IMG/VR virus record: IMGVR_UViG_3300035670_001411
Coordinates: 1-21,248 of that record
Direction: 5' to 3' (one strand)
Length of the DNA stretch: 21,248 bases
DNA from: a virus
Positions within the stretch are counted from its first letter, which is position 1, and every line of letters begins with the position of its first letter. The position numbers and the translations under genes are program-made. Shown piece by piece: positions 1,403 to 19,079 of this stretch. The notes beneath the pieces were generated by a model. It was not told the DNA's origin, searched no databases, and worked only from the letters and a program-made list of their open reading frames with translations.

Positions 1403-1705
1403 ATGAACATTAATGCGTTACACAAATTGGAAAAGGGTTACATCCAATTAGATTGGAAATCGTATATCCACAAAATCGAACTTTCAAAAGAACATATGGA
1501 AACCATCATTGATATGATTGATGTGTTTAAATTTAATAAGAGTACCAAAGAATTGGTAATATTCAGATTCGAAGGTATCCCTGCTTATATTACAATCCCA
1601 CGTACTGAATATAAAGATTTATTGGATTGGATGTATGAACGAATGATTAGATATGAATTTTTCGAAAATTGTAAAAGAATAGATGATTTAATTAAAATAT
1701 TATGA
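1403..1705 (+). CDS. Hypothetical protein, 100 residues
   Basis: This is the first gene after the promoter at 1340. The start ATG at 1403 is preceded by A/T-rich sequence without a Shine-Dalgarno site, as at other starts here. The product is a soluble, mixed alpha/beta-looking protein. It has alternating hydrophobic residues around 45-70 (KELVIFRFEGIPAYITIPR) that suggest beta strands, and a helical, aromatic-rich C-terminus with acidic and basic residues (LLDWMYERMIRYEFFE). There are no cysteine clusters, membrane segments or catalytic motifs that I recognise. It overlaps the following zinc-finger-like gene by an ATGA junction, so the two are probably co-translated. Function unknown. Confidence 0.7.
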   Translation: MNINALHKLEKGYIQLDWKSYIHKIELSKEHMETIIDMIDVFKFNKSTKELVIFRFEGIPAYITIPRTEYKDLLDWMYERMIRYEFFENCKRIDDLIKIL

Positions 1706-1923
1706 GTGGTATAAAAGATATCATTAAAAGTTGGTGGACATCATTTGGTCCAACCGAAGAACAATCAAAGGAAGCAGAACGTAGATTAGCAATCTGTATG
1801 AAACCATGTGAACATCGTAGGGAATCTGTTGTGTTTGGATATACTTGTGGAATGTGTGGTTGTCCTTTAGGTAAGAAAATATTTTCATCAGACCCAAAAC
1901 CTTGTCCAGATAATAGATGGTAA
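1702..1923 (+). CDS. Small Cys-rich, probable zinc-binding protein
   Basis: The 73-residue product carries six or seven cysteines in a pattern suited to metal binding: ICMKPCEH near residues 31-38, then YTCGMCGCPLGKK near 48-60, and a terminal PCPDNRW. The CxxCxCPLxxK...CPxxxW arrangement is one I associate with small proteins found widely in marine T4-like phages, but no function is established for it. The gene overlaps its neighbours on both sides (ATGA at 1702, seven bases with the next gene at 1917). That places it in the same operon as the SGNH protein. It could be a structural zinc protein or a regulator of host machinery; the sequence does not decide between these. Confidence 0.7.
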   Translation: MSGIKDIIKSWWTSFGPTEEQSKEAERRLAICMKPCEHRRESVVFGYTCGMCGCPLGKKIFSSDPKPCPDNRW

Positions 1924-2483
1924 CACAAAAACTATTAATAGCTGGTGATAGTTTTTCAGCAGATTGGACTAAGAAATACGAAGGTACTGGTTGGGTTAAT
2001 ATGTTATCCAACCAATACGATGTAACAAATATATCCCAAGCTGGTGTAAGTGAGTATAAAATATATTTACAATTAAAATCCGTAGATTTAACTGAATATG
2101 ATAAAATAATAGTGTCTCACACATCTGCATACAGAATTCCAATAGAAACCCACCCAATTCATAAGGGAGATTCTCTGCATGATAAATGTGATATTATATT
2201 TTCAGATGTTGAAGAACATTTGGATAATCCTATAATGAAAACTGCTTATGATTTTTATTATGATATTTTCTATTCGGAATATTTCATTTTTATTAATAAC
2301 CTAATATTTGATAAGATATACAACATCATTCCTAATGCAACCCATATTACATTTTTTGATTCATTTTATGATGAAAGAGTTTTAAAATATGAAAATGTGT
2401 TTGTTGAAAATACAGGATTAATCAATCATCTTAATTCTAATGGTAATAAGATAGTATATGATAATATAATACATAATTTATAA
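1917..2483 (+). CDS. SGNH/GDSL hydrolase-like protein 1 (lacks usual Asp)
   Basis: The N-terminus follows the SGNH pattern: a short beta strand (KLLIAGDSFSAD) with GDSF at residues 10-13 and Ser12 as the predicted nucleophile. A Gly/Asn-containing segment follows (SQAGVSEYK). Near the end, NHLNSNGN resembles block V, with the His five residues before a Gly as in the family. The Asp normally three residues before that His is replaced by Leu, so the triad may be a Ser-His dyad or the protein may be inactive. SGNH enzymes act on acyl or acetyl esters, for example on polysaccharides. At 188 residues it is normal for the fold. It is the first of five such proteins in this cassette. It has no signal peptide, so action would be cytoplasmic or on the virion. 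Confidence 0.7.
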   Translation: MVTQKLLIAGDSFSADWTKKYEGTGWVNMLSNQYDVTNISQAGVSEYKIYLQLKSVDLTEYDKIIVSHTSAYRIPIETHPIHKGDSLHDKCDIIFSDVEEHLDNPIMKTAYDFYYDIFYSEYFIFINNLIFDKIYNIIPNATHITFFDSFYDERVLKYENVFVENTGLINHLNSNGNKIVYDNIIHNL

Positions 2484-2528
2484 TTATACTATATTTATAT
2501 AAAACAAAACATACAGATAAACAATTTT

Positions 2529-4388
2529 ATGAAAGGAACATTTTTTTCAGCCGATTTCGTTACCGATAAAGACGATAATTATCGTTTAATTGAAATCAAT
2601 ACAGATACTGGTATAGTACAATCACAAGCTTATATATTTGATTGGACAGATTTCATCAATGTATTAAGTGGTTCAAATATTACTGATGTTGAAGTTGTAT
2701 ATAAATACGATATTCAAAATCCTATTGTAAGTAGTTTATCTGCTTCATTAGCAGAAAGTGCTTCATTTGTAACATCATTTACAAAAACAGTAGTAGCTGC
2801 TGATTCTATTTTTCCTCCATCATCTGTTGATGCTGATAATAAGTTTATCCTAAGAATGGCATACGATGAATCTGCTATATTAGATTCGGAATATGCCAAA
2901 GGTATATTAAACTTATTAACATTATTTGCAAATGCAGGAGATACTGGTTCAGTTTGTAATTTTTATCATTCATCTTCTGTGCATGGTGAATATGATACAT
3001 TAGATAAAACTTTATTTAATGGTGATTTATTACCAGATATGGTTGGTAAGCCATTATCAGAAACTCATAGAGAGCACGTTTTCTTTAAAATAGGACACTC
3101 TCAATCTGGTTCGGTTGATAGATATAATAATTTTATAGAAGCATTAAATCCATCTTCTTTTGTTTTAGAACAGTATCACATCCCACAATCACAAATAGAT
3201 GGTGGTGTTGTAAAATCAACTCGTTCATTCTGCATTGTATATGGTCCTAATTTGGATTTATGTTATGCAGCTGAATATGATATAGAAGCAGTTTTATCAT
3301 TACCAACCGGTTCTATTGTATTTGATGATTCAAAAATAGATAATAAACTAGAATCAAAACATTATTACGAATACGCTACTAATACTATAAAGAATGTCAA
3401 TCACGGTATATTAGAGAACGAAGATATTTTAGATGAAAATAACCAACCTGTTTTGATAAAAGATATGGTATTGGGTAATAGATATGTATCGTACTTTATT
3501 AGTGGTTCACCTAATACCGATGATTATGATGTTTTAAGACAATGGAGTTATGAAGGTAATACTTTACCATCTGGTTCATATTTAACATCTTCCGTATTAA
3601 TTGGTTTATATGAAGATACAACATATGCAAACGATTTAACTGAAATTAAATTTGAAAGTGGAGATTCAGTTGTAATTGGTGGAGAAGCTAGAATGTTAGT
3701 TCATAATAAAAACACAAATATCACATCGTATCAGAGAGTAGTTGATTTAACAACAGATTATTCTGTATTTGGTATGAACGAAACTACCAATAGTATAGTT
3801 GAGTTAAATTTAGTTATTTACGATGAGCAACAACCTGTTTATACAATGAATATGGAAGATGTAGATAACTTTATCTTAGCATCAGGAAACTTTGTTTCAT
3901 TCTTCGTTGTTCACAATTTAACAGGTGGTTCTTGTTTTATTGCAGGTACTAAGATTTTGATGGCAGATGGTTCTGAAAAGAATATTGAGGATGTTGTAGA
4001 GGGTGATGAAGTTATTTCATTTAATGAAGAAACTTTAGAAAATGAAGTTAAAAAAGTAATTGGTTTAAAAACTCCTATCCATAATGATTTAGTTAGATAT
4101 GAATTTGCAAACCAAACATCTGTAACATCTACATTTGACCACCCATTTTATGTTGGTGATTTAGAATTAGCATCATTTGCTCCATTCTTAACTAACAAAA
4201 GATATGAAATTGGAAAAGAGGTTAGACAAATTAAAGTTGGTGATTTGGTATATTTACCTACTAATAAATCCAAAACTGCAATTAAAGATATTATAGAATT
4301 AGATTCTAATGATACTCAAACATATATCATTACAGTTGAAGATAATCATAATTTTTACGCAAATAACATTTTAGTTCATAACAAATAA
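2529..4388 (+). CDS. Large protein with C-terminal self-processing Hint domain
   Basis: A 619-residue protein in two parts. Residues 1-468 are unrecognised as a whole. Near the N-terminus, ADFVTDKDDNYRLIEINTDTG (9-29) resembles the closing strand of ATP-grasp enzymes with its E-x-N metal-binding pair, and FILRMAYDESA lies around residue 106. Residues 469-619 form a Hint (hedgehog/intein) domain: Cys469 in GGSCFIAGTKILMADG, block-B TFDH with T535 and His538, and C-terminal VHNK with His617 and Asn618. An N-to-S acyl shift at Cys469 would form a thioester and could release the N-terminal part or pass it to a nucleophile. Only one residue follows Asn618, so there is no C-extein to splice. The 45-base upstream gap has no clear promoter. 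Alternatives are a virion or fibre protein trimmed by its own Hint domain, or an enzyme activated by cleavage. Confidence 0.8.
   Translation: MKGTFFSADFVTDKDDNYRLIEINTDTGIVQSQAYIFDWTDFINVLSGSNITDVEVVYKYDIQNPIVSSLSASLAESASFVTSFTKTVVAADSIFPPSSVDADNKFILRMAYDESAILDSEYAKGILNLLTLFANAGDTGSVCNFYHSSSVHGEYDTLDKTLFNGDLLPDMVGKPLSETHREHVFFKIGHSQSGSVDRYNNFIEALNPSSFVLEQYHIPQSQIDGGVVKSTRSFCIVYGPNLDLCYAAEYDIEAVLSLPTGSIVFDDSKIDNKLESKHYYEYATNTIKNVNHGILENEDILDENNQPVLIKDMVLGNRYVSYFISGSPNTDDYDVLRQWSYEGNTLPSGSYLTSSVLIGLYEDTTYANDLTEIKFESGDSVVIGGEARMLVHNKNTNITSYQRVVDLTTDYSVFGMNETTNSIVELNLVIYDEQQPVYTMNMEDVDNFILASGNFVSFFVVHNLTGGSCFIAGTKILMADGSEKNIEDVVEGDEVISFNEETLENEVKKVIGLKTPIHNDLVRYEFANQTSVTSTFDHPFYVGDLELASFAPFLTNKRYEIGKEVRQIKVGDLVYLPTNKSKTAIKDIIELDSNDTQTYIITVEDNHNFYANNILVHNK
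3933..4385 (+). other. Hint domain (Cys469-Lys619) of the preceding protein
   Basis: Domain-level annotation. The predicted cleavage point is the Gly-Ser/Cys junction encoded at 3930-3935. Block A is CFIAGTKILMADG followed by EGDEVIS. Block B is TSTFDHPF with the canonical T-x-x-H. Block F/G is the NNILVHN stretch at the very C-terminus. The +1 residue is Lys, which cannot complete Cys/Ser/Thr-dependent splicing. This makes the domain like an A-type bacterial intein-like (BIL) or hedgehog-type element, not a classical intein. All four expected catalytic residues are present. Confidence 0.82.
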
Positions 4389-4392
4389 TACT

Positions 4393-4536
4393 ATGGCAAG
4401 TAAAACAATATACAAAAAATTATCTTTGGAGCAATCTCAAACAAGAACTATGACTCCATTAACACCTGATAAGAAAATTAAAACCCATGCTATTGTATCT
4501 AATTTTATACAATATTTAAAAAACGCCCATTCTTAA
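4393..4536 (+). CDS. 47-residue hypothetical protein
   Basis: A short ORF begins four bases after the stop of the Hint protein and ends ten bases before the oxygenase gene, so it fills the gap without overlap. The product is basic and soluble, rich in Lys, Thr and Ser (MASKTIYKKL..., then TMTPLTPDKKIK, ending YLKNAHS), with no membrane segment and no cysteine. I do not recognise it. Its place between a Hint/possible ATP-grasp protein and a 2OG-Fe(II) hydroxylase allows the idea that it is a substrate or partner of those enzymes, but there is no direct evidence. Codon use looks like its neighbours, which favours a real gene. Confidence 0.5.
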   Translation: MASKTIYKKLSLEQSQTRTMTPLTPDKKIKTHAIVSNFIQYLKNAHS

Positions 4537-4546
4537 TATTTACTAA

Positions 4547-5101
4547 ATGGTTTTTTATAATGATGTTATGTTTTCTGAACAAGAGTGTTCGGATATAATA
4601 AATTTGGCGGATGTTTTTGAGGATTCGAAATTAGATATTCTAATCGGTAGTAAAAAATACGGGTCAGAAGTTGATTATAAAAAACGAAAATCTATTCAAT
4701 CTAAAAAACTAGCTACGGTTGGTTCTTTGGTTTATGATAGAATATCTAATATTATTAATTCATTTGGATATGAATTGATTGTAGATTCATTTAATTATGA
4801 TATTATAAAATATAGTGAAGGTAGTTTTCTATATAAACACAAAGATGGTGATGGGTACTCTTTAAGAGTATTGAGTATCATAGGTCAGTTGAGCAATGAT
4901 ACGGATTACGAAGGAGGTGATTTAAAATTTTGGGAAGGTGAAGATGAGAAAATTCTAAATCGAACCAAAGGTGTGGGAATTATTTTTAAACATAATGTTT
5001 ACCATGAAGTAACTACGGTTACTTCTGGTGAACGAATTTCATTTGTTTGCTTTTTGGAAACAATTCATGTAAGAAAAAAAGGAAATCAATCCTTATTTTA
5101 A
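4547..5101 (+). CDS. 2-oxoglutarate/Fe(II)-dependent dioxygenase (prolyl-4-hydroxylase-like)
   Basis: The 184-residue product has the P4H/PKHD jelly-roll signature. Tyr-x-x-Gly-Ser-Phe leads into KHKDGD, with H98-x-D100 as the first two iron ligands. Then come ILSIIGQLS-like core strands ending in YEGGDLKFWEG (121-131), the distal iron ligand His153 in NVYHEV, and Arg163 in SGERIS, the 2-oxoglutarate-binding residue. All four key residues are present, so an active hydroxylase is expected, using O2 and 2-oxoglutarate. Substrates of such phage enzymes are generally unknown; peptidyl Pro/Lys/Asn, a small molecule or a sugar are possible. It lies two bases before an SGNH gene and follows the 47-residue ORF, inside the modification cassette. 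T4-like marine phages often carry members of this family. Confidence 0.88.
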   Translation: MVFYNDVMFSEQECSDIINLADVFEDSKLDILIGSKKYGSEVDYKKRKSIQSKKLATVGSLVYDRISNIINSFGYELIVDSFNYDIIKYSEGSFLYKHKDGDGYSLRVLSIIGQLSNDTDYEGGDLKFWEGEDEKILNRTKGVGIIFKHNVYHEVTTVTSGERISFVCFLETIHVRKKGNQSLF

Positions 5102-5102
5102 A

Positions 5103-5744
5103 ATGAAAAAGTTATATGTGTTTGGTGATAGTTTTACCGATGCTAACATCATTAGTAACAACAAATCATACATTCAATGGAAGGGATATACCCCTAAAAC
5201 ATTTCATCAAATAATTTCAGAAAAATTAAATTTAGAAGTTGTAAACTTTGCCAGAGATTATGGTATAGATAATTACACTATATTTAATCAAATTTGCGAT
5301 AATATCAATTATATGGATAATTGTGTTGTTATAATAAATTGGAGTGAAATTATTAGATTTAGAATGGTAGATACTTCTACGCAAAAATGGAGAAGTGTTT
5401 TGGGTAAAACTTCAACTAGAAGTATGAGAGGTTTATCCTTTGTAAATGGTATATCGAATGAAACTATATTAGATACCATACAAAATAGAAATCATAAACT
5501 TTGGATAACCGAAATTAATTCTTGGATTAATATTATTAATAAAGCATTAAAAGATAGTATAGTTGTACATTGGGGATGGAGTGGTCATACTCACAGAGAA
5601 ACTATAACACAGGAAACAAATGGTGAGGTTGATGACTTTCATTATTCGGAAAAAGGACATCAACAATTGGCTGATTGGATTATGGTTCAAATAGAAAATG
5701 GTGGGTATTATAAAAGTCCATACTCCGAATCATCTATATTATGA
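5103..5744 (+). CDS. SGNH/GDSL hydrolase-like protein 2
   Basis: The 213-residue product shows the SGNH blocks. These are LYVFGDSFTDAN with Ser10, an oxyanion-type Gly54-Ile-Asp-Asn57, and a block V of DDFHYSEKG with Asp177 and His180, which completes a Ser-Asp-His triad. It shares WKGYTPK, a following HQII-type helix and overall layout with SGNH protein 3 (6501), so the two are close paralogs, with the oxygenase and a glycosyltransferase gene nearby. Probable activity is removal or transfer of an acyl/acetyl group on a carbohydrate or other ester. No signal peptide is present. It overlaps the downstream glycosyltransferase-like gene by ATGA at 5741, implying coordinated synthesis of the pair. 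Confidence 0.8.
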   Translation: MKKLYVFGDSFTDANIISNNKSYIQWKGYTPKTFHQIISEKLNLEVVNFARDYGIDNYTIFNQICDNINYMDNCVVIINWSEIIRFRMVDTSTQKWRSVLGKTSTRSMRGLSFVNGISNETILDTIQNRNHKLWITEINSWINIINKALKDSIVVHWGWSGHTHRETITQETNGEVDDFHYSEKGHQQLADWIMVQIENGGYYKSPYSESSIL

Positions 5745-6499
5745 AATTAATTTGGACATACAATAGTGATGTTACATTTGGTAAAGAGTTTGGAAATTTG
5801 CCTAAAAACCATAACTTAATACTATTAAATTATTACATCCATTCTATAAAGAGTGCGACCGAATTAGGTTACTATACGATAGTATATTGCAATACCACAT
5901 CAATAATTTATTTTGAAAATGTTGCAAATGAAATAATCGTAATAGATAATTATGAAAATTCACCATTATGGGATTCTTTTAAAATAAAAGTATTAGAAGA
6001 TAGAGATGATGATTTTTGCTTAATAGATGGTGATGTAATATTACATAATAAACTACCAAAGTTTAACACCGATGTTACATTTGATTCGTATGAGTTGAAT
6101 AATTTTAAATACAAATATAAGGGTATATTAAATGATTTAACAGATATGGGAATAGAGAATGACTTGGTAATTTGGGAAAATAAACAAATACCAATTATAT
6201 CATGTGGTATTCTATCTATTGGAAATTCAACACTTAAAGAGCAGTATATTTATAATTGGAAATTATATAACAAATTTATATTAAAACATCTAAACAAATT
6301 TGATATTGATTTAGCAACTATGGTTGGTGCTCAATATTTACTATCCATACTTTCACAAAAAATATCACATACTAAATTATCAAATTTAGTTGGTTCAGAT
6401 AATCTATATTATAAACATCACTGTGGTCCTACCAAATACAATAATCCAATTGTACCTACAAATGAATTAATTACTAAATTAAAAAAACAATTATTTTAA
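5741..6499 (+). CDS. Glycosyltransferase-like protein A (DGD motif)
   Basis: The 252-residue product starts MKLIWTY. It contains a GT-A-like core: NYYIHSIKSA, then a strand YTIVYCN, then EDRDDDFCLIDGDVILH, with D96-G-D98 as a predicted metal- and nucleotide-sugar-binding DxD motif. The central SCGILSIGN and GAQYLLS segments match the order of the paralog at 8352, which has the same length of 252 residues. Family knowledge suggests transfer of a sugar from a UDP/GDP-sugar, but donor and acceptor cannot be read from the sequence. It overlaps the upstream SGNH gene and sits one base before the next, so SGNH and glycosyltransferase genes alternate. A non-catalytic GT-A fold is the main alternative. 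Confidence 0.68.
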   Translation: MKLIWTYNSDVTFGKEFGNLPKNHNLILLNYYIHSIKSATELGYYTIVYCNTTSIIYFENVANEIIVIDNYENSPLWDSFKIKVLEDRDDDFCLIDGDVILHNKLPKFNTDVTFDSYELNNFKYKYKGILNDLTDMGIENDLVIWENKQIPIISCGILSIGNSTLKEQYIYNWKLYNKFILKHLNKFDIDLATMVGAQYLLSILSQKISHTKLSNLVGSDNLYYKHHCGPTKYNNPIVPTNELITKLKKQLF

Positions 6500-6500
6500 T

Positions 6501-7151
6501 ATGAAAAAGTTATGGGTTTTTGGTTGTAGTATTAGTGATTTATACGATAGTGAAACATCTAAATATTATTGGAGTTCTGAATATTTGGAATGGAAAGGAT
6601 ATACACCTAAACACCATACTCAAATTATAGCAGATGAATTGGGGTATGAATTAATGAATTGCGCAGTTTCTGCTACCTGTAATGCACAAATTTTACAAGA
6701 CTTTTGTGATAAGGTAAATGATATAGGTAAAGATGATTATGTTATAATACAATGGACAGAACCAAATAGAGTTAGATTTGTTGATGATGATGAAATTTGG
6801 ACTACTTTTGCATTTCATAGTAAATGGGCAAAATTTAAACTTAAAAAGTTTTCCCATATGACATTTGAAACAATACAACAAGTTTTAATAAACAGATTGA
6901 GTAAAGAGTATAGGAAGGAAATAAACAGTTGGGAAAATCTTATACGATTAACAATACCAACTGATAAATTATTAATTTGGTATCCTTTTGATAAAATAAT
7001 TGGAAATGGTAAAGTTGTTAAAAGCATTGAAACTATAAAAGTGGAAACCAATAATTTAATAGATGATTTACATTTTAGTGAATCTGGGCAAACACATATT
7101 GCATCTATATTGGTGGATATGATACTTAATACTAAAAAAAATATTATATAG
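6501..7151 (+). CDS. SGNH/GDSL hydrolase-like protein 3
   Basis: The 216-residue product begins KKLWVFGCSISD, with Cys in place of the Asp of GDS and Ser10 as the nucleophile. An Asn-containing block follows (SATCNAQ, Asn61), and a complete block V, DDLHFSESG, with Asp188 and His191. WKGYTPKHHTQII near residues 31-43 mirrors the same stretch in SGNH protein 2, showing recent duplication and divergence. The triad is intact, so esterase or acyltransferase-type activity is plausible. The ATG is one base after the preceding stop. The TAG stop shares its G with the GTG start of the next gene. Two hydrophilic central regions differ from its paralog and may set substrate choice. Confidence 0.78.
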   Translation: MKKLWVFGCSISDLYDSETSKYYWSSEYLEWKGYTPKHHTQIIADELGYELMNCAVSATCNAQILQDFCDKVNDIGKDDYVIIQWTEPNRVRFVDDDEIWTTFAFHSKWAKFKLKKFSHMTFETIQQVLINRLSKEYRKEINSWENLIRLTIPTDKLLIWYPFDKIIGNGKVVKSIETIKVETNNLIDDLHFSESGQTHIASILVDMILNTKKNII

Positions 7152-7813
7152 TGAATTTTGCATTATGTTTTCTTGCGTATGGTGATGAACATATTACCGA
7201 GTTTAATAACTTACAAAATTATTTGCAAGAATATCCTACATTTGTTTTAACCGATAATCGTAGTTTAATATCATCTACCACATCTAATATAATAGAAACA
7301 ACAGAAGAATTTAATTTTAATCTAAAAAGATATGCTGTGAATTCTGCATTTCAAAAATACGATACAATTGTATTATTAGATACCGATATTGATATTCAAA
7401 CGTTTGAATTTATTGATGAAATAGAAATGGATGGTATGTATGTTGAGTGGATAGACCCAAAGCTAACTCATAAAGGAATTAGATTGGATACTAAGAACAA
7501 TAAATATTTGATTGAATTAAGTAAATTAAATAAACACAGTTTACCAATACAATTCATACCGGAGTATTGTGTTGTAATAAAAATATCAGATGTTGATAAA
7601 AGAAAACAGTTTGTTGAAAGATGGGGTGAAATCCACAACATAGTAAAAGATGTAGAACCAACCGATAGACACTATAATTTAAATGGTGCAATAGAAGGTT
7701 GTATAATGTATCTAACTTGTATGGATTTAAATATTCCAATTATACCATTTGGTAATAAATTAAAAGTTACTCATTATTCATCTAATTATAAATTTGATAA
7801 AAAATTGGTATGA
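7151..7813 (+). CDS. Glycosyltransferase-like protein B (DTD motif)
   Basis: The 220-residue product starts at GTG 7151, whose G is the last base of the previous stop (TAGTG). The ATGs downstream would remove the first strand, so GTG is preferred. The N-terminus FALCFLAYGDEH and the strand TIVLLDTDIDI, with D77-T-D79, resemble GT-A glycosyltransferases, where the DxD binds the metal and nucleotide sugar. Later FIPEYCVVIK and an EGCIMYLTC helix fit the acceptor half of such enzymes. It ends in an ATGA overlap with the sulfotransferase gene, suggesting that the sugar added may next be sulfated. The exact GT family and the donor are not identifiable by eye. Confidence 0.68.
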   Translation: MNFALCFLAYGDEHITEFNNLQNYLQEYPTFVLTDNRSLISSTTSNIIETTEEFNFNLKRYAVNSAFQKYDTIVLLDTDIDIQTFEFIDEIEMDGMYVEWIDPKLTHKGIRLDTKNNKYLIELSKLNKHSLPIQFIPEYCVVIKISDVDKRKQFVERWGEIHNIVKDVEPTDRHYNLNGAIEGCIMYLTCMDLNIPIIPFGNKLKVTHYSSNYKFDKKLV

Positions 7814-8352
7814 TAATTCTATTATTAGCAGAAGCAAGAAGTGGGAGCACTAATTTGGCGAAATGGTTGAAAGAATCTTTGCCAGATTATGAATTATTAA
7901 ATGAACCATACAATCCTAAATCTAACGAATTTATAGGTAACTCCAAAATAAATACAACAAAAAATTACATTATAAGTGAAAAGTATTTTAGTAATGTAGG
8001 ATTAGTAAATGAGTTAATATCCATTTCAGATGTTGTTATTTGTTTATACAGAGAAGATATTAATTCTCAATTAGAATCGTATTTAACTGCTATGAAGACA
8101 GATAATTGGTATGGTGAATATATTGATGTTATATTAGATAGTTCGTTGGTAATAGAAAAAGATGAATTTATAAAAAATAAAAAAGAATTTAAAGATTTAA
8201 TAACCCATAATAACTTTAAATCATTTACATATGAGGGGTTGTATTATAATAACCAAATAGATGAGTTAAAGTTATATTTAAATATAGAATCAAATATATC
8301 ATTTCCGTATGGAAAAAAATATAGAATAAACGTTAATAAATCCGTAATCTAA
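7810..8352 (+). CDS. PAPS-dependent sulfotransferase-like protein (Stf0-like)
   Basis: The 180-residue product has the sulfotransferase P-loop-like 5'-phosphosulfate binding motif near the N-terminus, LLAEARSGSTNLAKWL (Arg10, Ser11, Gly12, Ser13, Thr14). It also has a downstream strand-loop-helix, VVICLYREDINSQLESYL, with Arg81 followed by Ser86/Ser90, the usual 3'-phosphate binding pattern. LLNEPYNP (residues 29-36) matches the E-P-Y/F segment common in these enzymes. It is shorter than most family members (about 250), with a reduced C-terminal part. Expected activity is transfer of sulfate from host PAPS to a hydroxyl, probably on a sugar given that glycosyltransferase-like genes flank it on both sides with overlapping stops and starts. 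Sulfotransferases are uncommon in phages. Confidence 0.78.
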   Translation: MIILLLAEARSGSTNLAKWLKESLPDYELLNEPYNPKSNEFIGNSKINTTKNYIISEKYFSNVGLVNELISISDVVICLYREDINSQLESYLTAMKTDNWYGEYIDVILDSSLVIEKDEFIKNKKEFKDLITHNNFKSFTYEGLYYNNQIDELKLYLNIESNISFPYGKKYRINVNKSVI

Positions 8353-9110
8353 TGAAACTAATATGGACATATGATGGTAAAATGAGTAAGGGTGATGATA
8401 CTAGTAGAAACAAAATAATTCTTATCAATTACTACATACATTCAATTGTAACTGCCAAAACATTTGGTTATGAAACTATTATATACTGCGATTCATATTC
8501 TTCTAAATATTTTAAATTCATAGTTGATGAAATGGTTATCGTTGAATCATATGAAGATTCTATAATATGGGACTATATGAAAGTTAAAGTGATGGAAGAT
8601 AGAGATGATGAGTTTATATTAATAGATGGAGATGTAATACTACATAAACAATTACCCGAATTCTCTGCGGATATTGTGTTTGATACATATGAAACTGCTA
8701 ATTGGATGAGTGAATATTCTAAAACATCTAAACAATTAGAAGATTTAGGAGTTAAAGAAATTATACCATATTGGGATTCCGAAAGGAAAGCAGTAATATC
8801 AACTGGTATATTTTATTTAAATCCAATTTTTAGAAAAGATTATGTTTCTGAATTTAAAAAATGTAATAAGTTTATAAATCAAAATAAATATACTTCCATA
8901 TTTCACAAAGATAATATCAGTTTAGTTGGTGGTCAATATTTATTAACTTTATTTGCAAACCATAATAATTTGACTAGATTAAATATAAATAAAAATATGG
9001 GAGAAATTGGTAAATACTACAAACATTATTTTGGTAAAACAAAATACCAATCACCGTTGGTTTCTGATTTAAGTATATACAACCCATTATCTACTAAAAA
9101 TTTAATATAG
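8352..9110 (+). CDS. Glycosyltransferase-like protein A' (paralog of 5741)
   Basis: The 252-residue product is a clear paralog of the protein at 5741: same MKLIWTY start, same NYYIHSI segment, EDRDDEFILIDGDVILHKQ with D92-G-D94, then a TGIFYLN segment and VGGQYLLTLF, ending with a YYKHxxGxTKY motif shared by both. Identical lengths and conserved spacing point to duplication followed by divergence, so each copy may have its own donor or acceptor. It begins with TAATG overlap on the sulfotransferase stop and is followed by a 32-base gap, the longest inside this half of the cassette. No promoter is evident in that gap. Confidence 0.7.
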   Translation: MKLIWTYDGKMSKGDDTSRNKIILINYYIHSIVTAKTFGYETIIYCDSYSSKYFKFIVDEMVIVESYEDSIIWDYMKVKVMEDRDDEFILIDGDVILHKQLPEFSADIVFDTYETANWMSEYSKTSKQLEDLGVKEIIPYWDSERKAVISTGIFYLNPIFRKDYVSEFKKCNKFINQNKYTSIFHKDNISLVGGQYLLTLFANHNNLTRLNINKNMGEIGKYYKHYFGKTKYQSPLVSDLSIYNPLSTKNLI

Positions 9111-9142
9111 TATAATATCTATTAATAACTAAAATATTAAAT

Positions 9143-9850
9143 ATGGTTGTTTATACTAATGGGTGTTCTCATACGGCTGGTGGATGTATGAAATTTCAAC
9201 ATACTTGGCCTCTTATTATTATGAAAAGTATAATGAAAAACCAATCTTATACAATAAATCCAAATCATTTAGAATTATTTAAATTTGATAATATCATATA
9301 CAATCAAGCAATGCATGGTGCTGGTAACGATTATATATTTCACACATCATTGGAAAGTATATCTAACTTAATATCAAATAATAAAAAACCAAATCACGTA
9401 ATAATTCAATGGTCTGGCCCTAATCGTAGATTACACACACAACCCGATGGAACTATTTTATTTATAAATCCATGGGATTATCCTGAATTAGGTGTAAAGT
9501 TTGAACCAATGGGCAGTGAGCATACTATACATTATATGTTTGCATTGCAAGAGTTTCTTAAAAAGAATGAAATAGATTATTGGTTTTTCAACTATATGCA
9601 GTTAGATAAATCTATTAAAAATCTAGAAATATATAGGAAAATTGATTTTAATAGATTTATCAATTTTGGAATGGGTGATTCTATAATATTTAACGGATTG
9701 TTAAATTTTTTTAAATCCAAAAACTTATGTTGCGATGAGCAGGGACATCCCAATCAAGAAGCAAACTTTATGATAGCTAAACAATTTTTAGATAAAGTAG
9801 GAATCGAAATGATAGAATCAAATGATTTCTTAAAGGTATCTTTACTATGA
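9143..9850 (+). CDS. SGNH hydrolase-like protein 4 (GCSH type)
   Basis: The 235-residue product begins VVYTNGCSHTAGG, where Ser9 replaces the GDS serine in a GCSHT context. It has a good block III (AMHGAGNDY, Asn62), a VIIQWSGPNR strand after it, and a block V CDEQGHPNQEA with Asp198 and His202. The Asp-His spacing is four, not three, as in several SGNH variants. This GCSHT/GND/GHPN version is different from proteins 1-3 and closer to protein 5, which it precedes with an ATGA overlap. Likely substrates are again acyl or acetyl esters. The 32-base upstream gap (9111-9142) is AT-rich without a clear -33/-7 pair. Confidence 0.75.
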   Translation: MVVYTNGCSHTAGGCMKFQHTWPLIIMKSIMKNQSYTINPNHLELFKFDNIIYNQAMHGAGNDYIFHTSLESISNLISNNKKPNHVIIQWSGPNRRLHTQPDGTILFINPWDYPELGVKFEPMGSEHTIHYMFALQEFLKKNEIDYWFFNYMQLDKSIKNLEIYRKIDFNRFINFGMGDSIIFNGLLNFFKSKNLCCDEQGHPNQEANFMIAKQFLDKVGIEMIESNDFLKVSLL

Positions 9851-10638
9851 TAAAAGAGATACATTGTTTTGGAACATCGTTTACTGCGGGTGGTGGGTTT
9901 GAGTTTGAATCGCATTTTAAGCAAAAGAAATTATTAGAAAATTATTCAGAAGAACCCCTAACCCAATCAAACTACTCATATCCTGGACAATTACAAAATA
10001 TAGTTGGTAGTGATATAATTGTATTCAATCATGGACAAAGTGGATTTGGCAATGAGTTGATGTACCGTAAAGCATTTGATGTAATAGAATCGTCTAAAAC
10101 GATGGATGATAAATTATTCATATTAGAATTTTCATCATTGGGAAGAAAGGAAATATGGTCTAACACTTACAATAGACACCTTATAGTAAATTATAATTTT
10201 AATAATGATTTAAGTATTTGGGTAACAGGTATATCTGAATTATATTTTTTAACAGATACATCTGTTGAAAATAATTTAAAAGGAATAGTTGAACCGTTTT
10301 TAAAAGAAACTATAAATTTAGAAGTTCAAGAAAAATTGGTAAATCAAAATGCAGAATTCTTTGTTGATTATTTGATGTATAATAAGATTAATTTTTTAGT
10401 TGTTCAAGAACCACTTTACGAAAAAACAAAAAATAAAATATTACCAAACACAATTGATTTTGGAGATGGGATTAAGAATATGATAAATTATTCGGTTATA
10501 CATAATTTATCTATAACAAATGAAACAAACGGTAGAATTAAAGATGAGCATGGTGGTTTTAAGTGGGCAAAGATAATAGCTACTAAAATAGCAAATAAGT
10601 ATAACATAAACAATTTACAAAAAACACAAATTATATGA
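9847..10638 (+). CDS. SGNH hydrolase-like protein 5
   Basis: The 263-residue product starts IKEIHCFGTSFTAGGGFEFE, with Ser11 as nucleophile and the same TAGG element as protein 4. Block III is GQSGFGNEL (Asn69). Block V is KDEHGGFKWA with Asp233 and His235, two residues apart, so the acid could be Asp233 or Glu234. It is about 30 residues longer than its neighbour, with an added central segment around residues 110-160. Proteins 4 and 5 probably descend from a duplication separate from the one that produced 2 and 3. The ATGA overlap with the next gene at 10635 keeps it in the same translational chain. Confidence 0.72.
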   Translation: MIKEIHCFGTSFTAGGGFEFESHFKQKKLLENYSEEPLTQSNYSYPGQLQNIVGSDIIVFNHGQSGFGNELMYRKAFDVIESSKTMDDKLFILEFSSLGRKEIWSNTYNRHLIVNYNFNNDLSIWVTGISELYFLTDTSVENNLKGIVEPFLKETINLEVQEKLVNQNAEFFVDYLMYNKINFLVVQEPLYEKTKNKILPNTIDFGDGIKNMINYSVIHNLSITNETNGRIKDEHGGFKWAKIIATKIANKYNINNLQKTQII

Positions 10639-11900
10639 TGCATAAAAAAATATATGTTCATCATTATTTCTCTAAAACACTATTTTATAAACTCGCACAT
10701 AATAGTGTGGATAAAATATTTGATATAAATTCTAATAATATTGGTTCTGTAAAATGTAATTATAGAAACTTAATATTTGAATTTGTATTTAATCCAGAAT
10801 TAAACGATAACGATGATGGTGTTCATCTTATAGATTTTTTTTCCGTATTATTCCAAAAGGATTTTGACTTAAATTATAAAGACTTACACATTGTTGATTC
10901 GGAAGATGTGCCAATTTTAACTAGCATAAATGAGTTACTTTCTAATAAAAAGAAATGGATTATAACTTTGTTTAGAACGGAACGGATACTTGCCGATTAT
11001 GATAAAATGGTAGATACATATGATTATATCAATCCATTACAATCATTATTGTTAAACTTATCAAATCATACGATAGTTAGTGATAATTTATTTTTAAGTG
11101 ATTCCATTCGTTTTAAATATCCACATATTCATTATGCATTTACTAATACAATTTGGCAATGGAATGAATTAATTGGTATTAGATGGTATTATGAATTTAA
11201 ATCAATTTTCGAAAAATTAAACTTTGATTATGATTTGATGTATTCAGTTAGAAATCATAAAGACCATAGATTTTATATATTAAAAGGATTATCTGAATTA
11301 AATAATGATAGAATCTTATTACAGAGAACTAACTCCATGCCTGGTAGTTTGGGATGGGAATTATTTAATGATAAACTAAATGATATGCCAAATGTTAAAT
11401 TGAATTCAGTATTTGGTGAATATGATTTTGATAACCTATCTTCTATAAAATACCAAGATGGAATTACTTATGATTTATTTTTTAGATTATTCTCAAAGGC
11501 AAAAGTTCAAGTATTAGATGAGAGTTGGGCATGGTCTGATGATGAATTTAAAAACCAATATTTATCTGAAAAAACAATTGGTATTATACTGATGAATATA
11601 CCATTCATATCAACTCACGTTTATCCTATTGATTTTTTATCTAAAATATTAGATTTGCCACCACACCCATTTCATTCCGATTTTCAAAAACATTCTGGCA
11701 ATTCTAAATTGTTTGTTGAATTTGTTGAAAAGTTTATGACAGATTTTGATAGCAATTACGATTTAATAAAAAAATGGACAACCATTTGTCATAATAAATT
11801 TTTACAAAAGTTAAACAATACCAATGATTTGTTAGATATGATTGTAGATGAATTTAAAGAACAAAAAAATATAATAAAAACAAATACAAAGTTTATATAA
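10635..11900 (+). CDS. Putative glycosyltransferase C, last gene of the cassette
   Basis: The 421-residue soluble product begins KKIYVHHYFS. The C-terminal half carries the features that suggest a GT-B/exostosin- or fucosyltransferase-like enzyme: DLFFRLFSKAKVQVLDES (around 278-296), and YLSEKTIGIILMNIPFIST (about 309-327), where a Glu-Lys pair followed by a hydrophobic stretch and PFI is typical of nucleotide-sugar binding in such proteins. The N-terminal half is diverged, and no DxD is clear. It overlaps the SGNH protein 5 gene by four bases. Downstream lies a new promoter, so this gene closes the operon. I am fairly sure it belongs functionally with the cassette and much less sure of its exact chemistry. 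Confidence 0.55.
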   Translation: MMHKKIYVHHYFSKTLFYKLAHNSVDKIFDINSNNIGSVKCNYRNLIFEFVFNPELNDNDDGVHLIDFFSVLFQKDFDLNYKDLHIVDSEDVPILTSINELLSNKKKWIITLFRTERILADYDKMVDTYDYINPLQSLLLNLSNHTIVSDNLFLSDSIRFKYPHIHYAFTNTIWQWNELIGIRWYYEFKSIFEKLNFDYDLMYSVRNHKDHRFYILKGLSELNNDRILLQRTNSMPGSLGWELFNDKLNDMPNVKLNSVFGEYDFDNLSSIKYQDGITYDLFFRLFSKAKVQVLDESWAWSDDEFKNQYLSEKTIGIILMNIPFISTHVYPIDFLSKILDLPPHPFHSDFQKHSGNSKLFVEFVEKFMTDFDSNYDLIKKWTTICHNKFLQKLNNTNDLLDMIVDEFKEQKNIIKTNTKFI

Positions 11901-11936: not shown

Positions 11937-12254
11937 ATGATTATAGTTCCACAAACACCCATAACAGAATCTAGCTTCAATAGATGGAAGTGTCATAGAT
12001 TAGAAGTAGAAGATGGAGAAGACTCCTATCACTACTATGTAATACCTTTAATAGATATAGATGAAGATGAGATACCAGAATTAGAATTCGCACCCGTATT
12101 ATTCAGTTCAGAATCAGGTGAGTTTTTAGATGAAAATGGTAATGATATCTATACTGTCAGATTATTTGATGAAGACCTTCCTGAAATGACTTCGGAAGAA
12201 GAAGTAGAAATACTTTATAAAATTTTAACTAAAAAAGATATTTTTCTGAAATGA
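11937..12254 (+). CDS. Strongly acidic 105-residue protein
   Basis: The product has about 27 Asp/Glu against 8 Lys/Arg, giving a net charge near -19. Acidic runs include LIDIDEDEIPELEF, FLDENGND and MTSEEEVE. There is a single Cys and no membrane segment or catalytic motif. Such size and charge fit DNA-mimic or anti-restriction style inhibitors made early in phage infection. They also fit simple acidic accessory proteins, so the function is open. It is transcribed from its own host-like promoter, and its ATG lies four bases after the -7 box, predicting a leaderless or nearly leaderless mRNA. Individual promoters in this part of the genome suggest early or middle expression. Confidence 0.7.
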   Translation: MIIVPQTPITESSFNRWKCHRLEVEDGEDSYHYYVIPLIDIDEDEIPELEFAPVLFSSESGEFLDENGNDIYTVRLFDEDLPEMTSEEEVEILYKILTKKDIFLK

Positions 12255-16687: not shown

Positions 16688-17377
16688 ATGGCAAGAAAAG
16701 CAAAGAGCAAACAATACTTTACAAAGGATACAGAAGATGCAATCATAGAGTATAATTTATCAGATGAACAAAGAGTTAAAGATTTATTATACAGAGATAG
16801 AATTAAACCTGCATTTGATAAACTTGCTGAAATAGTTTATAATAAATGGAAGTTTACTTATTTTGATGATGACCCACAAGATGTAATGGCAGAAGTTGTT
16901 GCATTTATGGTTGAAAAAATCCATATGTACAAAAACGGTAAAGGTAAAGCATTTAGTTACTTTACAATTGTTGCTAGAAATTACCTTATCTTAAATAATA
17001 ACGCAAACTACAAACGATATAAAGATACTGATATTTTATCATCTTTACCTGAAAACTTTGATACGGAAAACAATTTCAAAGAAGAGGTAAGAAACGATGA
17101 ATACAGAACTTTTAATAAAAGAATGTTAGCATATTGGGATGTTCATTTAGAAAATTATTTTCCAAAGAAACGTGATATGCAGATTGCGGATGCGGTTTTA
17201 GAATTATTTAGGAGAGCAGAATACATAGAAAATTTCAATAAAAAATCTCTTTATCTACTTATTAGAGAGATGACTGGTCACCCAACTCATTATATAACTA
17301 AGGTTGTCAATAAAATGAAAGAAAGACAAATGGAGTTATTTAACGAATTTGAAGATATGGGTGATATTAAAATTTAA
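16688..17377 (+). CDS. 55: gp55-like late transcription sigma factor
   Basis: The 229-residue product matches T4 gp55, the phage sigma that directs host RNA polymerase to late promoters. YFTKDTEDAIIEYN at the N-terminus precedes a region-2-like core: the helix AFDKLAEIVYNKWKFTYF, then DVMAEVVAFMVEKI, and GKGKAFSYFTIVARNYLI around 95-112, where the K-AFSYF-x-x-V-x-N pattern is diagnostic. The remaining helical part ends in KMKERQMELFNEFEDMGDI, in the position of T4 gp55's terminal sliding-clamp-binding peptide, though the motif is not certain by eye. Sigma regions 3 and 4 are absent, as expected for gp55. It is collinear with the baseplate genes it would help express. Confidence 0.88.
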   Translation: MARKAKSKQYFTKDTEDAIIEYNLSDEQRVKDLLYRDRIKPAFDKLAEIVYNKWKFTYFDDDPQDVMAEVVAFMVEKIHMYKNGKGKAFSYFTIVARNYLILNNNANYKRYKDTDILSSLPENFDTENNFKEEVRNDEYRTFNKRMLAYWDVHLENYFPKKRDMQIADAVLELFRRAEYIENFNKKSLYLLIREMTGHPTHYITKVVNKMKERQMELFNEFEDMGDIKI

Positions 17378-17381
17378 CACT

Positions 17382-19079
17382 ATGATTCAATTAGGAATTT
17401 CAGCTTTCTACCATGATTCAGCAGCTTCAATAGTAATAGATGGTAAAGTTATATGTGCAATAGAAGAAGAGAAGTTGTCAGGCATAAAGCATGACAACTC
17501 TTTTCCATTTAAGGCAATTGCTTGGTGTTTAAGCTACGCAAATATATCAATCGAAGATGTTACCATGGTTTGTTGGTATGAGAACCCAGAGTTAAAGTAT
17601 GATAGGGTAAAACACACATTAGGTAGGAGATGGATTAGTAATTGGAAGACTTGGTTTAAGTTTAAGAAAGAATTTAAAGCAACAGAAGGTAATTTATCTC
17701 AATATTTAGAGAAAAACATAGGTTTTAAGGGTACTTTGTACAAAATCAAACACCATTTATCACATCTAGCACTATCTTTTTATACATCCCCATATGATGA
17801 TGCTATTGGGTTATCCATAGATGGTGTTGGTGAATGGGATACAATTTCTATTGCAAGTTGTGATATTAGTGGTATTAGAGAGGTAAAATCGGTATATTTT
17901 CCCAATTCTTTGGGATTAGTGTATTCAACTATAACTGCATATTTGGGATTCAAACCAAATGAAGGAGAATATAAAGTAATGGGTTTAGCACCTTACGGAA
18001 CTCCTAAAAACTACGAACACATTTTTGATAAATTCACCAAATTGGGTGGAGATGATATTATCAGTATAGACCAAAAGTATTTCACTTGGGAATATTCTAA
18101 TACAGATATGTTCAATATGGATTTAGTAGACTTAATTGGGTTTGAACCGAGAACACCTGATTCAGAAATAGAACTACATCATATGGAGTTAGCATCTGCT
18201 CTTCAACATTGGTATGAAAAATGTTTTTATTATGTAATCAACCACTCATTAGAATATATTGACAGTAAAAACTTAGTATTGGGTGGTGGGTGTGCTTACA
18301 ACGGAACTGCTAATGGTAAGATAAAACAAAACACACCTATAAAGGATGTGTGGATTCCGTATGCTCCATCTGATGCGGGTTCTGCTATTGGTGCGTGTTT
18401 ATATGTTTGGCATGATGTTTTAGGATACTCTAAGAAAATGGGTGGTGATAATCAATCTCCATACTTAGGACCTGAATTTAGTGAAGATGAATTATTTCAT
18501 ATTATAAATAAAGAAAATAATATTGTTGTTGAAAAAATAGAAGATGAATATCAGTTATGTAGAATTGCTGCGAATATTATAAATGAAGGTAATATTGTAG
18601 GATGGTTTCAAGGTAGAACTGAATTCGGTGCAAGAGGTTTAGGTAATCGTTCTATATTAGCAAATCCCCATTTACCAGATGTTAGAGATAGAATAAATAA
18701 AGTTGTTAAGAAAAGAGAGATGTTTAGACCATTTGCTCCATCTGTAACAATTGAAGATTATAAATTATATTTTGATTCAGAAGGTGAAGTTCCATATATG
18801 AATCAGGTTGTAAAAGTTAGTGGATATAAAGATATCCCATCAGTAACACACGTTGACCGTTCAGCAAGAATACAAACTGTTAGAAAAGAACAAAATCCAC
18901 TATACTATAATTTGTTAAAAGAATTTGAAAAAGTAAGTGGAACTCCAATTTTACTAAACACATCATTTAATTTAAAAGGACATACTACAACAAATGACCC
19001 ACAAAAAGCAATGTGGACATTTATGAATTGTGATATGGATTATTTGATTATGAATAATTATATAATAAAGAAGATATAA
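17382..19079 (+). CDS. NodU/CmcH-family carbamoyltransferase
   Basis: I start at ATG 17382, giving 565 residues beginning MIQLGISAFYHDSAAS. An upstream TTG at 17349 would overlap the sigma gene and add 11 unlikely residues. The N-terminal Kae1-like domain contains LGISAFYHDSA, the metal-binding KHHLSH (His124, His125, His128), SIDGVGEWDT and LVLGGGCAYNG. The C-terminal YrdC-like part has GWFQGRTEFGARGLGNRSIL, RDRINKVVKKREMFRPFAPS and a PILLNTSFNLKGH stretch. Enzymes of this family transfer the carbamoyl group of carbamoyl phosphate, through an adenylate, to a hydroxyl on a sugar or antibiotic. T4-like cyanophages also carry one. The acceptor here is unknown; a glycan made by the upstream cassette is a plausible target. 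Confidence 0.92.
   Translation: MIQLGISAFYHDSAASIVIDGKVICAIEEEKLSGIKHDNSFPFKAIAWCLSYANISIEDVTMVCWYENPELKYDRVKHTLGRRWISNWKTWFKFKKEFKATEGNLSQYLEKNIGFKGTLYKIKHHLSHLALSFYTSPYDDAIGLSIDGVGEWDTISIASCDISGIREVKSVYFPNSLGLVYSTITAYLGFKPNEGEYKVMGLAPYGTPKNYEHIFDKFTKLGGDDIISIDQKYFTWEYSNTDMFNMDLVDLIGFEPRTPDSEIELHHMELASALQHWYEKCFYYVINHSLEYIDSKNLVLGGGCAYNGTANGKIKQNTPIKDVWIPYAPSDAGSAIGACLYVWHDVLGYSKKMGGDNQSPYLGPEFSEDELFHIINKENNIVVEKIEDEYQLCRIAANIINEGNIVGWFQGRTEFGARGLGNRSILANPHLPDVRDRINKVVKKREMFRPFAPSVTIEDYKLYFDSEGEVPYMNQVVKVSGYKDIPSVTHVDRSARIQTVRKEQNPLYYNLLKEFEKVSGTPILLNTSFNLKGHTTTNDPQKAMWTFMNCDMDYLIMNNYIIKKI

Follow-up and report, generated by a model that had tools for sequence, protein, structure and literature searches.

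Encapsulin cargo-loading peptides and peroxisomal targeting signal 1 (PTS1) are C-terminal targeting tags, and in the gene clusters of ribosomally synthesized and post-translationally modified peptides (RiPPs), a precursor lies beside its tailoring genes and carries the recognition element on its leader. Marine T4-like phages carry 2-oxoglutarate (2OG) oxygenases and tryptophan halogenases (PMC3037559), and bacterial intein-like (BIL) domains yield products that are mainly cleaved, not spliced (PMC7664689). Here, we describe an island of tailoring genes in the complete 21,248-bp IMG/VR record IMGVR_UViG_3300035670_001411 (the window), an AT-rich stretch of DNA from an uncultured T4-like phage whose host most likely belongs to the Bacteroidota. 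Ten of its enzymes end in a common C-terminal tag, and its first large gene encodes a 619-residue protein with a predicted Hint domain. Both features were missing from the first-pass annotation of this DNA. Neither the enzyme families nor the Hint domain is new, whereas a C-terminal tag common to dozens of enzyme families and grouped around a single putatively self-processing phage protein is apparently new, as it was not found in the literature searched, which covered few subscription journals. Throughout, open reading frames (ORFs) are named by their start coordinate in the window, and labels such as L003 or L088 denote viral relatives or loci.

The shared C-terminal tag

The tag was noticed by setting family alignments side by side, where unrelated proteins showed like endings. 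All ten enzymes between 4547 and 11900 end in K-x-x-K-[KSTN]-[LI]-[ILF]-COOH; they are given below with their family evidence and the empirical p value of the tag (GT, glycosyltransferase; pLDDT, predicted local distance difference test).

4547..5101, + strand: 2OG-Fe(II) oxygenase, prolyl-4-hydroxylase type, tail GNQSLF; 2OG-FeII_Oxy_3 2.3e-9; tag p 0.0009
5103..5744, + strand: SGNH/GDSL protein, tail SESSIL; Lipase_GDSL 1.2e-8, above cut-off; tag p 0.0097
5741..6499, + strand: GT-like, DUF6734-type, tail LKKQLF; DUF6734 0.0066, paralogue of 8352-9110 by alignment; tag p 0.0009
6501..7151, + strand: SGNH-like, tail TKKNII; 36% identical to 5103-5744; tag p <0.0001
7151..7813, + strand: GT8-like, tail FDKKLV; Glyco_transf_8 0.008; tag p 0.0057
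7810..8352, + strand: sulfotransferase-like, RSGST P-loop, tail NKSVI; family alignment; tag p 0.0012
8352..9110, + strand: GT-like, DUF6734-type, tail TKNLI; DUF6734 0.00099; tag p 0.0004
9143..9850, + strand: SGNH-like, tail LKVSLL; Pfam GDSL 0.011, BLAST-linked to the 9847 family; tag p 0.0068
9847..10638, + strand: SGNH-like, tail QKTQII; 44-46% identity in L003-L007; tag p 0.0046
10635..11900, + strand: predicted GT-B glycosyltransferase, most conserved enzyme of the island, tail TNTKFI; AlphaFold2 pLDDT 87.8; tag p 0.0012

The weight matrix behind these p values was trained without the window; each of the ten enzymes scored p <= 0.0097, and no other ORF of the window fell below 0.016. 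In a sample of 134 loci surrounding 2529 or 10635 homologues, we counted the pattern [KRNSTQ][KRSNTQ][LIVFM][LIVFM] at the C-terminus of proteins of at least 100 residues. It closes 442 of the 1292 proteins, compared to 4 to 37 matches (about 1%) at each of 39 inner positions. After removal of sequences more than 80% alike, 384 tagged proteins remained in 57 BLAST clusters, among which singletons may be chance matches and independent folds are not proven for all. The consensus reads K-x-x-K-[KST]-L-I, with Lys at position -7 in 34% and Ile at -1 in 64% of the proteins; the search pattern itself favours certain residues at the last four places, but it does not touch position -7. When 118 tagged proteins from many families were aligned with MAFFT, the sole consensus was KxLI. 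Pfam families among the tagged proteins comprise 2OG, radical SAM, SPASM, FkbM methyltransferase, GDSL, tryptophan halogenase (2.5e-97), SET, and GT2, along with others, and GT and sulfotransferase-like families are also tagged around related loci.

The synonymous codons of the last four positions closely match gene-body usage, tagged genes use all three stop codons, and 66 of 363 tagged genes lie more than 30 nucleotides from the next gene. The codon usage, the varied stops, and the long 3' gaps led us to reject a nucleotide-level origin of the tail, such as translational coupling or a recombination linker, and as judged from these sequences the tag is conserved at the protein level. In a 245-kb relative with 324 ORFs, the strict tag closes nine of them, namely, four island enzymes, four SGNH-like proteins encoded elsewhere, and one 56-residue ORF. 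Because these tagged SGNH genes lie far from the island, the tag tracks protein class, not locus. It is mostly limited to enzymes of the tailoring type, and other phage proteins as a rule do not carry it. Moreover, it was not found on Flavobacteriia homologues of the halogenase and DUF6734 families. All 14 of the 2OG and halogenase proteins of phage HTVC008M are untagged, and the 3 of its 157 ORFs that match the pattern include no such enzyme; the 2OG homologues of S-PRM1, S-SM2, AG-345-E15, and LR756501 are likewise untagged.

For the region 1917-11900, the coordinates and shared strand proposed in the first-pass annotation hold, while its 14 ORFs reduce to 12 same-strand ORFs in our count. 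The tight spacing that it described applies to 8 of the 11 junctions (overlaps of 1 or 4 bases or a 1-base gap), the looser ones being 2483/2529, 4388/4547, and 9110/9143. The 2OG-Fe(II) oxygenase call for 4547-5101 is confirmed above the curated Pfam cut-off (38.5 bits versus 27), and a profile of this family retrieved prolyl-4- and PKHD hydroxylases from the PDB (best 3dkq, E 1.8e-13). Five SGNH proteins had been proposed, of which 5103 is backed by Pfam and is the only one to reach the curated cut-off; 6501, 9143, and 9847 are joined by BLAST linkage, and 1917, with a GDSF motif only, is left without family support. The catalytic Ser and His columns of the SGNH alignment are invariant, and the DxxH Asp is found in 5103 and 6501 only. 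Among the four glycosyltransferases proposed, 5741, 8352, and 7151 show weak profile similarity only. No family match was obtained by profile for 10635-11900, which is a GT-B glycosyltransferase according to its AlphaFold2 model: VIA-align gave Z 12.7 over 297 residues to SenB, 12.3 to TarM, and 11.2 to a phage GT. Residues 412-421 of this model, i.e., the tagged end, have a pLDDT below 50 and are predicted to be disordered. The sulfotransferase call for 7810, of the 3'-phosphoadenosine-5'-phosphosulfate type, keeps its RSGST P-loop and Sulfotransfer_3 matches in 3 of 11 family members (best E 0.0019), but the window protein itself has no Pfam sulfotransferase match and the curated cut-off is not reached. 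A scan of the window proteins against NCBIfam returned spurious weak matches only. As far as tested, nothing indicated that these proteins have unrelated folds or that their genes never occur as a set.

The 2529 protein and the site of the island

The protein encoded at the head of the island has the following predicted layout.

2529..4388, + strand: candidate hub, 619 residues, first large gene of the island; AlphaFold2 pLDDT 90.6
Domains of the 2529 protein (+ strand): N-domain, residues 1-290; degenerate Hint-1, about 293-463; insert LTGGS; Hint-2/BIL, 469-619

Residues 469-619 are predicted to form a Hint/BIL domain, putatively self-cleaving. The model of this Hint-2 matches Tetrahymena BUBL1 BIL2 (6y75, 6tmm) at Z 25 and the Clostridium thermocellum BIL domain (2lwy) at Z 20.6, and it keeps an N-terminal Cys (C469) and a His-Asn pair before the final K. 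Pfam gave AXH at 38.3 bits, over the cut-off, and Intein_splicing at 1.8e-8, just below it. Residues 293-459 match the Prp8 intein at Z 16.9, which makes them a second Hint domain without the N-terminal Cys. Matches in BFVD are mainly Hint proteins. A Foldseek match to potato glutathione synthetase StGSS1 (5oes; E 1.8e-5, rank 50) suggests a similar fold for the N-domain. Eight residues are invariant in 64 homologues of 2529 (D9, E22, N24, T25, R109, K174, N463, and C469), and the order of the invariant motifs follows that of LKQIEINT and YFRDGYMP in human glutathione synthetase.

The flanks of the insert between the two Hint domains are conserved (H462 in 62/64, N463 and C469 in 64/64 homologues), so that Hint-1 retains its terminal His-Asn. 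The length of the insert varies: the window has LTGGS, many homologues have at most two residues, and others have 8 to 13 residues rich in G, R, and Y. Further 2529 clades have a Cys/Trp/Tyr-rich mini-peptide, after which comes Hint-2 or an S74 chaperone domain, or the protein simply ends; the inserts are, for instance, VCTYCYTSWAPCGNYYCDSGCPPCG ahead of Hint-2 in L192 and PFGAGRYSYGEC in L185. A short segment framed by two putatively self-cleaving elements recalls the architecture of BUBL proteins or of split inteins engineered for peptide cyclization. In L217:2423-3910, L231:2443-3933, and L192:6001-7953, a conserved Cys/Trp/Tyr-rich mini-peptide (e.g., CWCPWNYCGHWCNSWYCPGC) starts right behind the Asn that ends Hint-1. 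An S74-type chaperone domain replaces Hint-2 in L009:3474-5219, L013:4541-6235, and L017:2023-3963, one self-cleaving C-terminal domain thus standing in for another, and homologues with several tandem Hint domains occur at L149:220-2961 (913 residues) and L182:6001-8736 (911 residues).

Hundreds of viral contigs encode a 2529 homologue (318 confirmed, 80 fetched), and each of 18 records that have one has it only once. At the limit used, neither the N-part of 2529 nor the L211 homologue had a tblastn match in 50,697 phage records, nor did 8352, 6501, the L211 GT-B, or the L219 sulfotransferase-like protein. In the bacterial genomes scanned, only the Hint domain was matched, with the best matches mostly in Flavobacteriaceae. 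Tagged tryptophan halogenases adjoin 2529 homologues at L135:12271-13497, L192:4438-5667, and L202:2508-3731.

At the single-locus level, the association between a 2529 homologue and the tag is weakly significant (p 0.023), many loci being short fragments. Because these fragments limit that test, we used the distance profile in large genomes. Across five relatives, tagged ORFs number 47/101 within 8 kb of the 2529 homologue (46%), 14/108 at 8 to 20 kb, and 24/742 beyond (3%). Four records without a detectable 2529 homologue have 3/230 ORFs tagged, a weak comparison since they are fragments.

Around the enzymes, the island is bounded by two anchors; the flanking features and the untagged first ORF are as follows.

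1403..1705, + strand: left anchor, 100 residues; identity 93% in L088, 86% in L089, and 76% in L090
1702..1923, + strand: small Cys-rich zinc-ribbon-like protein, untagged; phrog_13558 E 9.5e-5
1917..2483, + strand: 188-residue protein with a GDSF motif, SGNH assignment unsupported, no tag; tail p 0.24
11937..12254, + strand: right anchor, 105 residues, start of the conserved backbone; identity 68-90% in most island-bearing relatives

Three libraries were searched with 1917-2483, which matched nothing in Pfam or NCBIfam and had a best PHROG match of only E 0.07. Identity of the right anchor is only 40% in L014 and L025. The backbone to the right of the island is kept in L003-L007 and L088-L090 at about 45-97% identity and comprises, from 11937 onward, an HD-domain protein, Hsp20, a UvdE-type endonuclease, a peptide deformylase, a sigma-like protein, and a carbamoyltransferase; T4-type baseplate wedge genes follow where the contig of a relative extends beyond the right end of the window. 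The SGNH homologues of 9847 in L003-L007 are themselves backbone genes, located between the UvdE-type endonuclease and the peptide deformylase. Between the anchors, gene content varies by lineage while the kinds of protein stay alike, and at L016:9124-9997 the site is empty, with the left anchor, the small Cys-rich protein, and the right anchor directly adjoining. Since the anchors are conserved, the content between them differs, and the site of L016 is empty, the island is a fixed-site, exchangeable cassette. The gene set thus does behave as a unit, as the first-pass annotation had it, in the sense of a fixed site between conserved genes with content exchanged between relatives. The same gene order, sought in relatives, is not conserved, and therefore there is no single fixed pathway; one fixed glycan pathway is rejected in view of the differing gene content of relatives together with the empty island of L016.

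Some neighbouring genes deserve mention. Tagged paralogues of 1702-1923 lie inside islands at L009:2505-2792 (RKSLI), L013:4215-4502 (KNSLI), and L025:7833-8114, and could be adaptors. The untagged carbamoyltransferase at 17376-19079 is of the NodU/CmcH type (phrog_1601, E 5e-118), with about 68% identity in relatives and distant versions (~30%) in cyanophages and HTVC008M. Two extra backbone genes that are not in the window, L004:6761-7093 and L004:8037-8375, look by eye only like iron-sulfur-assembly and nucleotidyltransferase genes.

What the tag may do

We propose that the tag serves as a docking code: carried as a free C-terminus on a flexible tail, it would dock each tailoring enzyme onto a common partner, so that carrying the tag would let enzymes of any family join or leave the assembly. 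The best candidate for both partner and substrate carrier would be the 2529 protein, which is single-copy, putatively self-processing, and located at the head of the island. Its self-cleavage could expose or release the short segment between the Hint domains, and the docked enzymes would then hydroxylate (in the manner of prolyl hydroxylases), glycosylate, and sulfate that segment or a nearby virion protein, with modification of the virion tip or surface as the possible final role. That the tag recruits interchangeable tailoring enzymes, most likely to the 2529 protein, is in our judgment close to evenly balanced between right and wrong. The broader formulation, a modular phage modification system in which dozens of families are recruited by a K-x-L-I-type tag to an ATP-grasp-like/double-Hint protein and the chemistry is changed by gene swaps, is put forward more tentatively. 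The dedicated glycan system of the first-pass annotation retains a plausible sugar, sulfate, and hydroxylation chemistry but appears too narrow, as tagged SET, radical-SAM/SPASM, FkbM, and tryptophan halogenase proteins in equivalent islands suggest the tailoring of a protein or peptide no less than that of a glycan.

Several observations weigh against the docking code. Both the binding of the tag and the part of 2529 as its reader are proposed from co-location, which could reflect a shared host or lineage, and since most records are fragments, the absence of a hub from tag-poor records is weak evidence. A profile search of the PDB with the N-domain gave no match at E <= 10, hhalign of the N-domain against glutathione synthetase gave a probability of 1.1% with the EINT motif as the best segment, and the homologue alignment contains no conserved GGGNN-type glycine-rich ATP loop after K174. 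Because these sequence tests fail and the loop is not kept, the N-domain is called ATP-grasp-like at the level of predicted fold and motif order. Moreover, the five-residue insert of the window would be a poor substrate alone, and the S74 domain of some 2529 homologues suggests a fibre-like virion protein, not a hub.

The first alternative, which we regard as rather unlikely, is that the tag is read by a host factor or another phage factor that sets the location or lifetime of the enzymes (membrane, inner capsid, degradation), the enzymes acting separately on host glycans or on the virion. In its favour, the tag resembles many targeting and degradation signals in being a short hydrophobic peptide at the C-terminus, the tagged SGNH proteins of the 245-kb relative also lie far from the island, and dependence on a hub was not distinguishable from lineage or host. 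However, another reader would have to accommodate the clustering of tagged genes at the 2529 homologue and the restriction of the tag largely to tailoring-type enzymes.

Returning to the docking code, two alternatives assign 2529 another role, and we hold both to be improbable. One treats the N-domain as a working ATP-grasp ligase that takes the tag as its substrate, activating the C-terminal carboxylate of tagged proteins and joining it to an amine in a Hint-assisted conjugation. This would fit the fold match to eukaryotic glutathione synthetase, the conservation of E22/N24 and R109/Y112 in the motif order of the Mg and substrate residues of that enzyme, the free carboxylate at the end of the tag, and a BIL domain nearest to Tetrahymena BUBL1; yet the glycine-rich loop is not conserved, the sequence-level link was not found, and nothing in the analysis gave evidence of modified C-termini. 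The other, to which we likewise give little credence, is RiPP-like: members of the 2529 family would be precursors, with the insert or mini-peptide released from between two self-cleaving domains for tailoring by the enzymes encoded nearby. The conserved flanks of the insert, inserts such as those of L192 and L185, and the tailoring families (radical SAM/SPASM, tryptophan halogenase, 2OG, SET, FkbM, and GT) argue for it, with a compatible layout in several relatives. Against it stand an insert that shrinks from five residues in the window to zero to two in many homologues, the fibre chaperone S74 at the end of some members, and an N-part of about 465 residues, unusual for a leader.

An ordinary glycan or surface cassette without shared docking, its tails a by-product of translational coupling or of AT-rich gene ends, might be suspected from the many overlapping junctions, the AT-rich DNA, and the commonness of I, L, K, and N, but it is already disfavoured and very improbable given that tag codon usage equals that of the gene body, genes with long 3' gaps keep the tag, comparable enzymes of HTVC008M and of bacteria are untagged, and so are the other genes in the tag-bearing genomes.

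Comparison with known systems

If the tag is indeed a docking code, it would offer a general, portable means of recruiting enzymes into a modification assembly and would explain the quick exchange of tailoring chemistry between phages. The last four residues would then serve as a simple finder for unknown phage modification enzymes, and the roles of the 2OG, GT, and SGNH proteins of large aquatic phages would become testable, at least in this lineage.

Among the closest known systems are HTVC008M and the cyanophages, T4-like phages with several 2OG oxygenases and PrnA-like halogenases. HTVC008M differs in that its 2OG and halogenase proteins are untagged, and a hub homologue was not found in the 50,697 phage records. 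This Pelagibacter phage also has annotated curli assembly genes, csgF and csgG, and a curlin-like gene at L354:7562-9557. With BUBL1 BIL2 and the C. thermocellum BIL domain, the 2529 protein has in common the Hint-2 fold, Cys1, and the terminal His-Asn, but here Hint-2 is fused behind a degenerate Hint and an ATP-grasp-like domain, beside a tagged island and with no ubiquitin-like domain. The eukaryotic glutathione synthetases (2hgs, 5oes), which are circularly permuted ATP-grasp enzymes, share the order of the ExN and R..Y motifs with the N-domain of 2529, whereas that domain counts about 290 residues compared to 474, has no sequence-level match to them, and does not keep the glycine-rich loop.

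The tag itself is comparable to the encapsulin peptides and PTS1 in being a short C-terminal peptide common to unrelated enzymes, here on a tail predicted to be disordered in the one model examined; its sequence is different, and it is spread over dozens of BLAST clusters in modification islands of phages. Finally, as in RiPP clusters, a precursor-like protein stands beside radical SAM, 2OG, halogenase, SET, and GT genes in relatives of the window. Unlike in those clusters, the shared element is carried by the enzymes and not by a leader, and two putatively self-cleaving domains flank the putative core.

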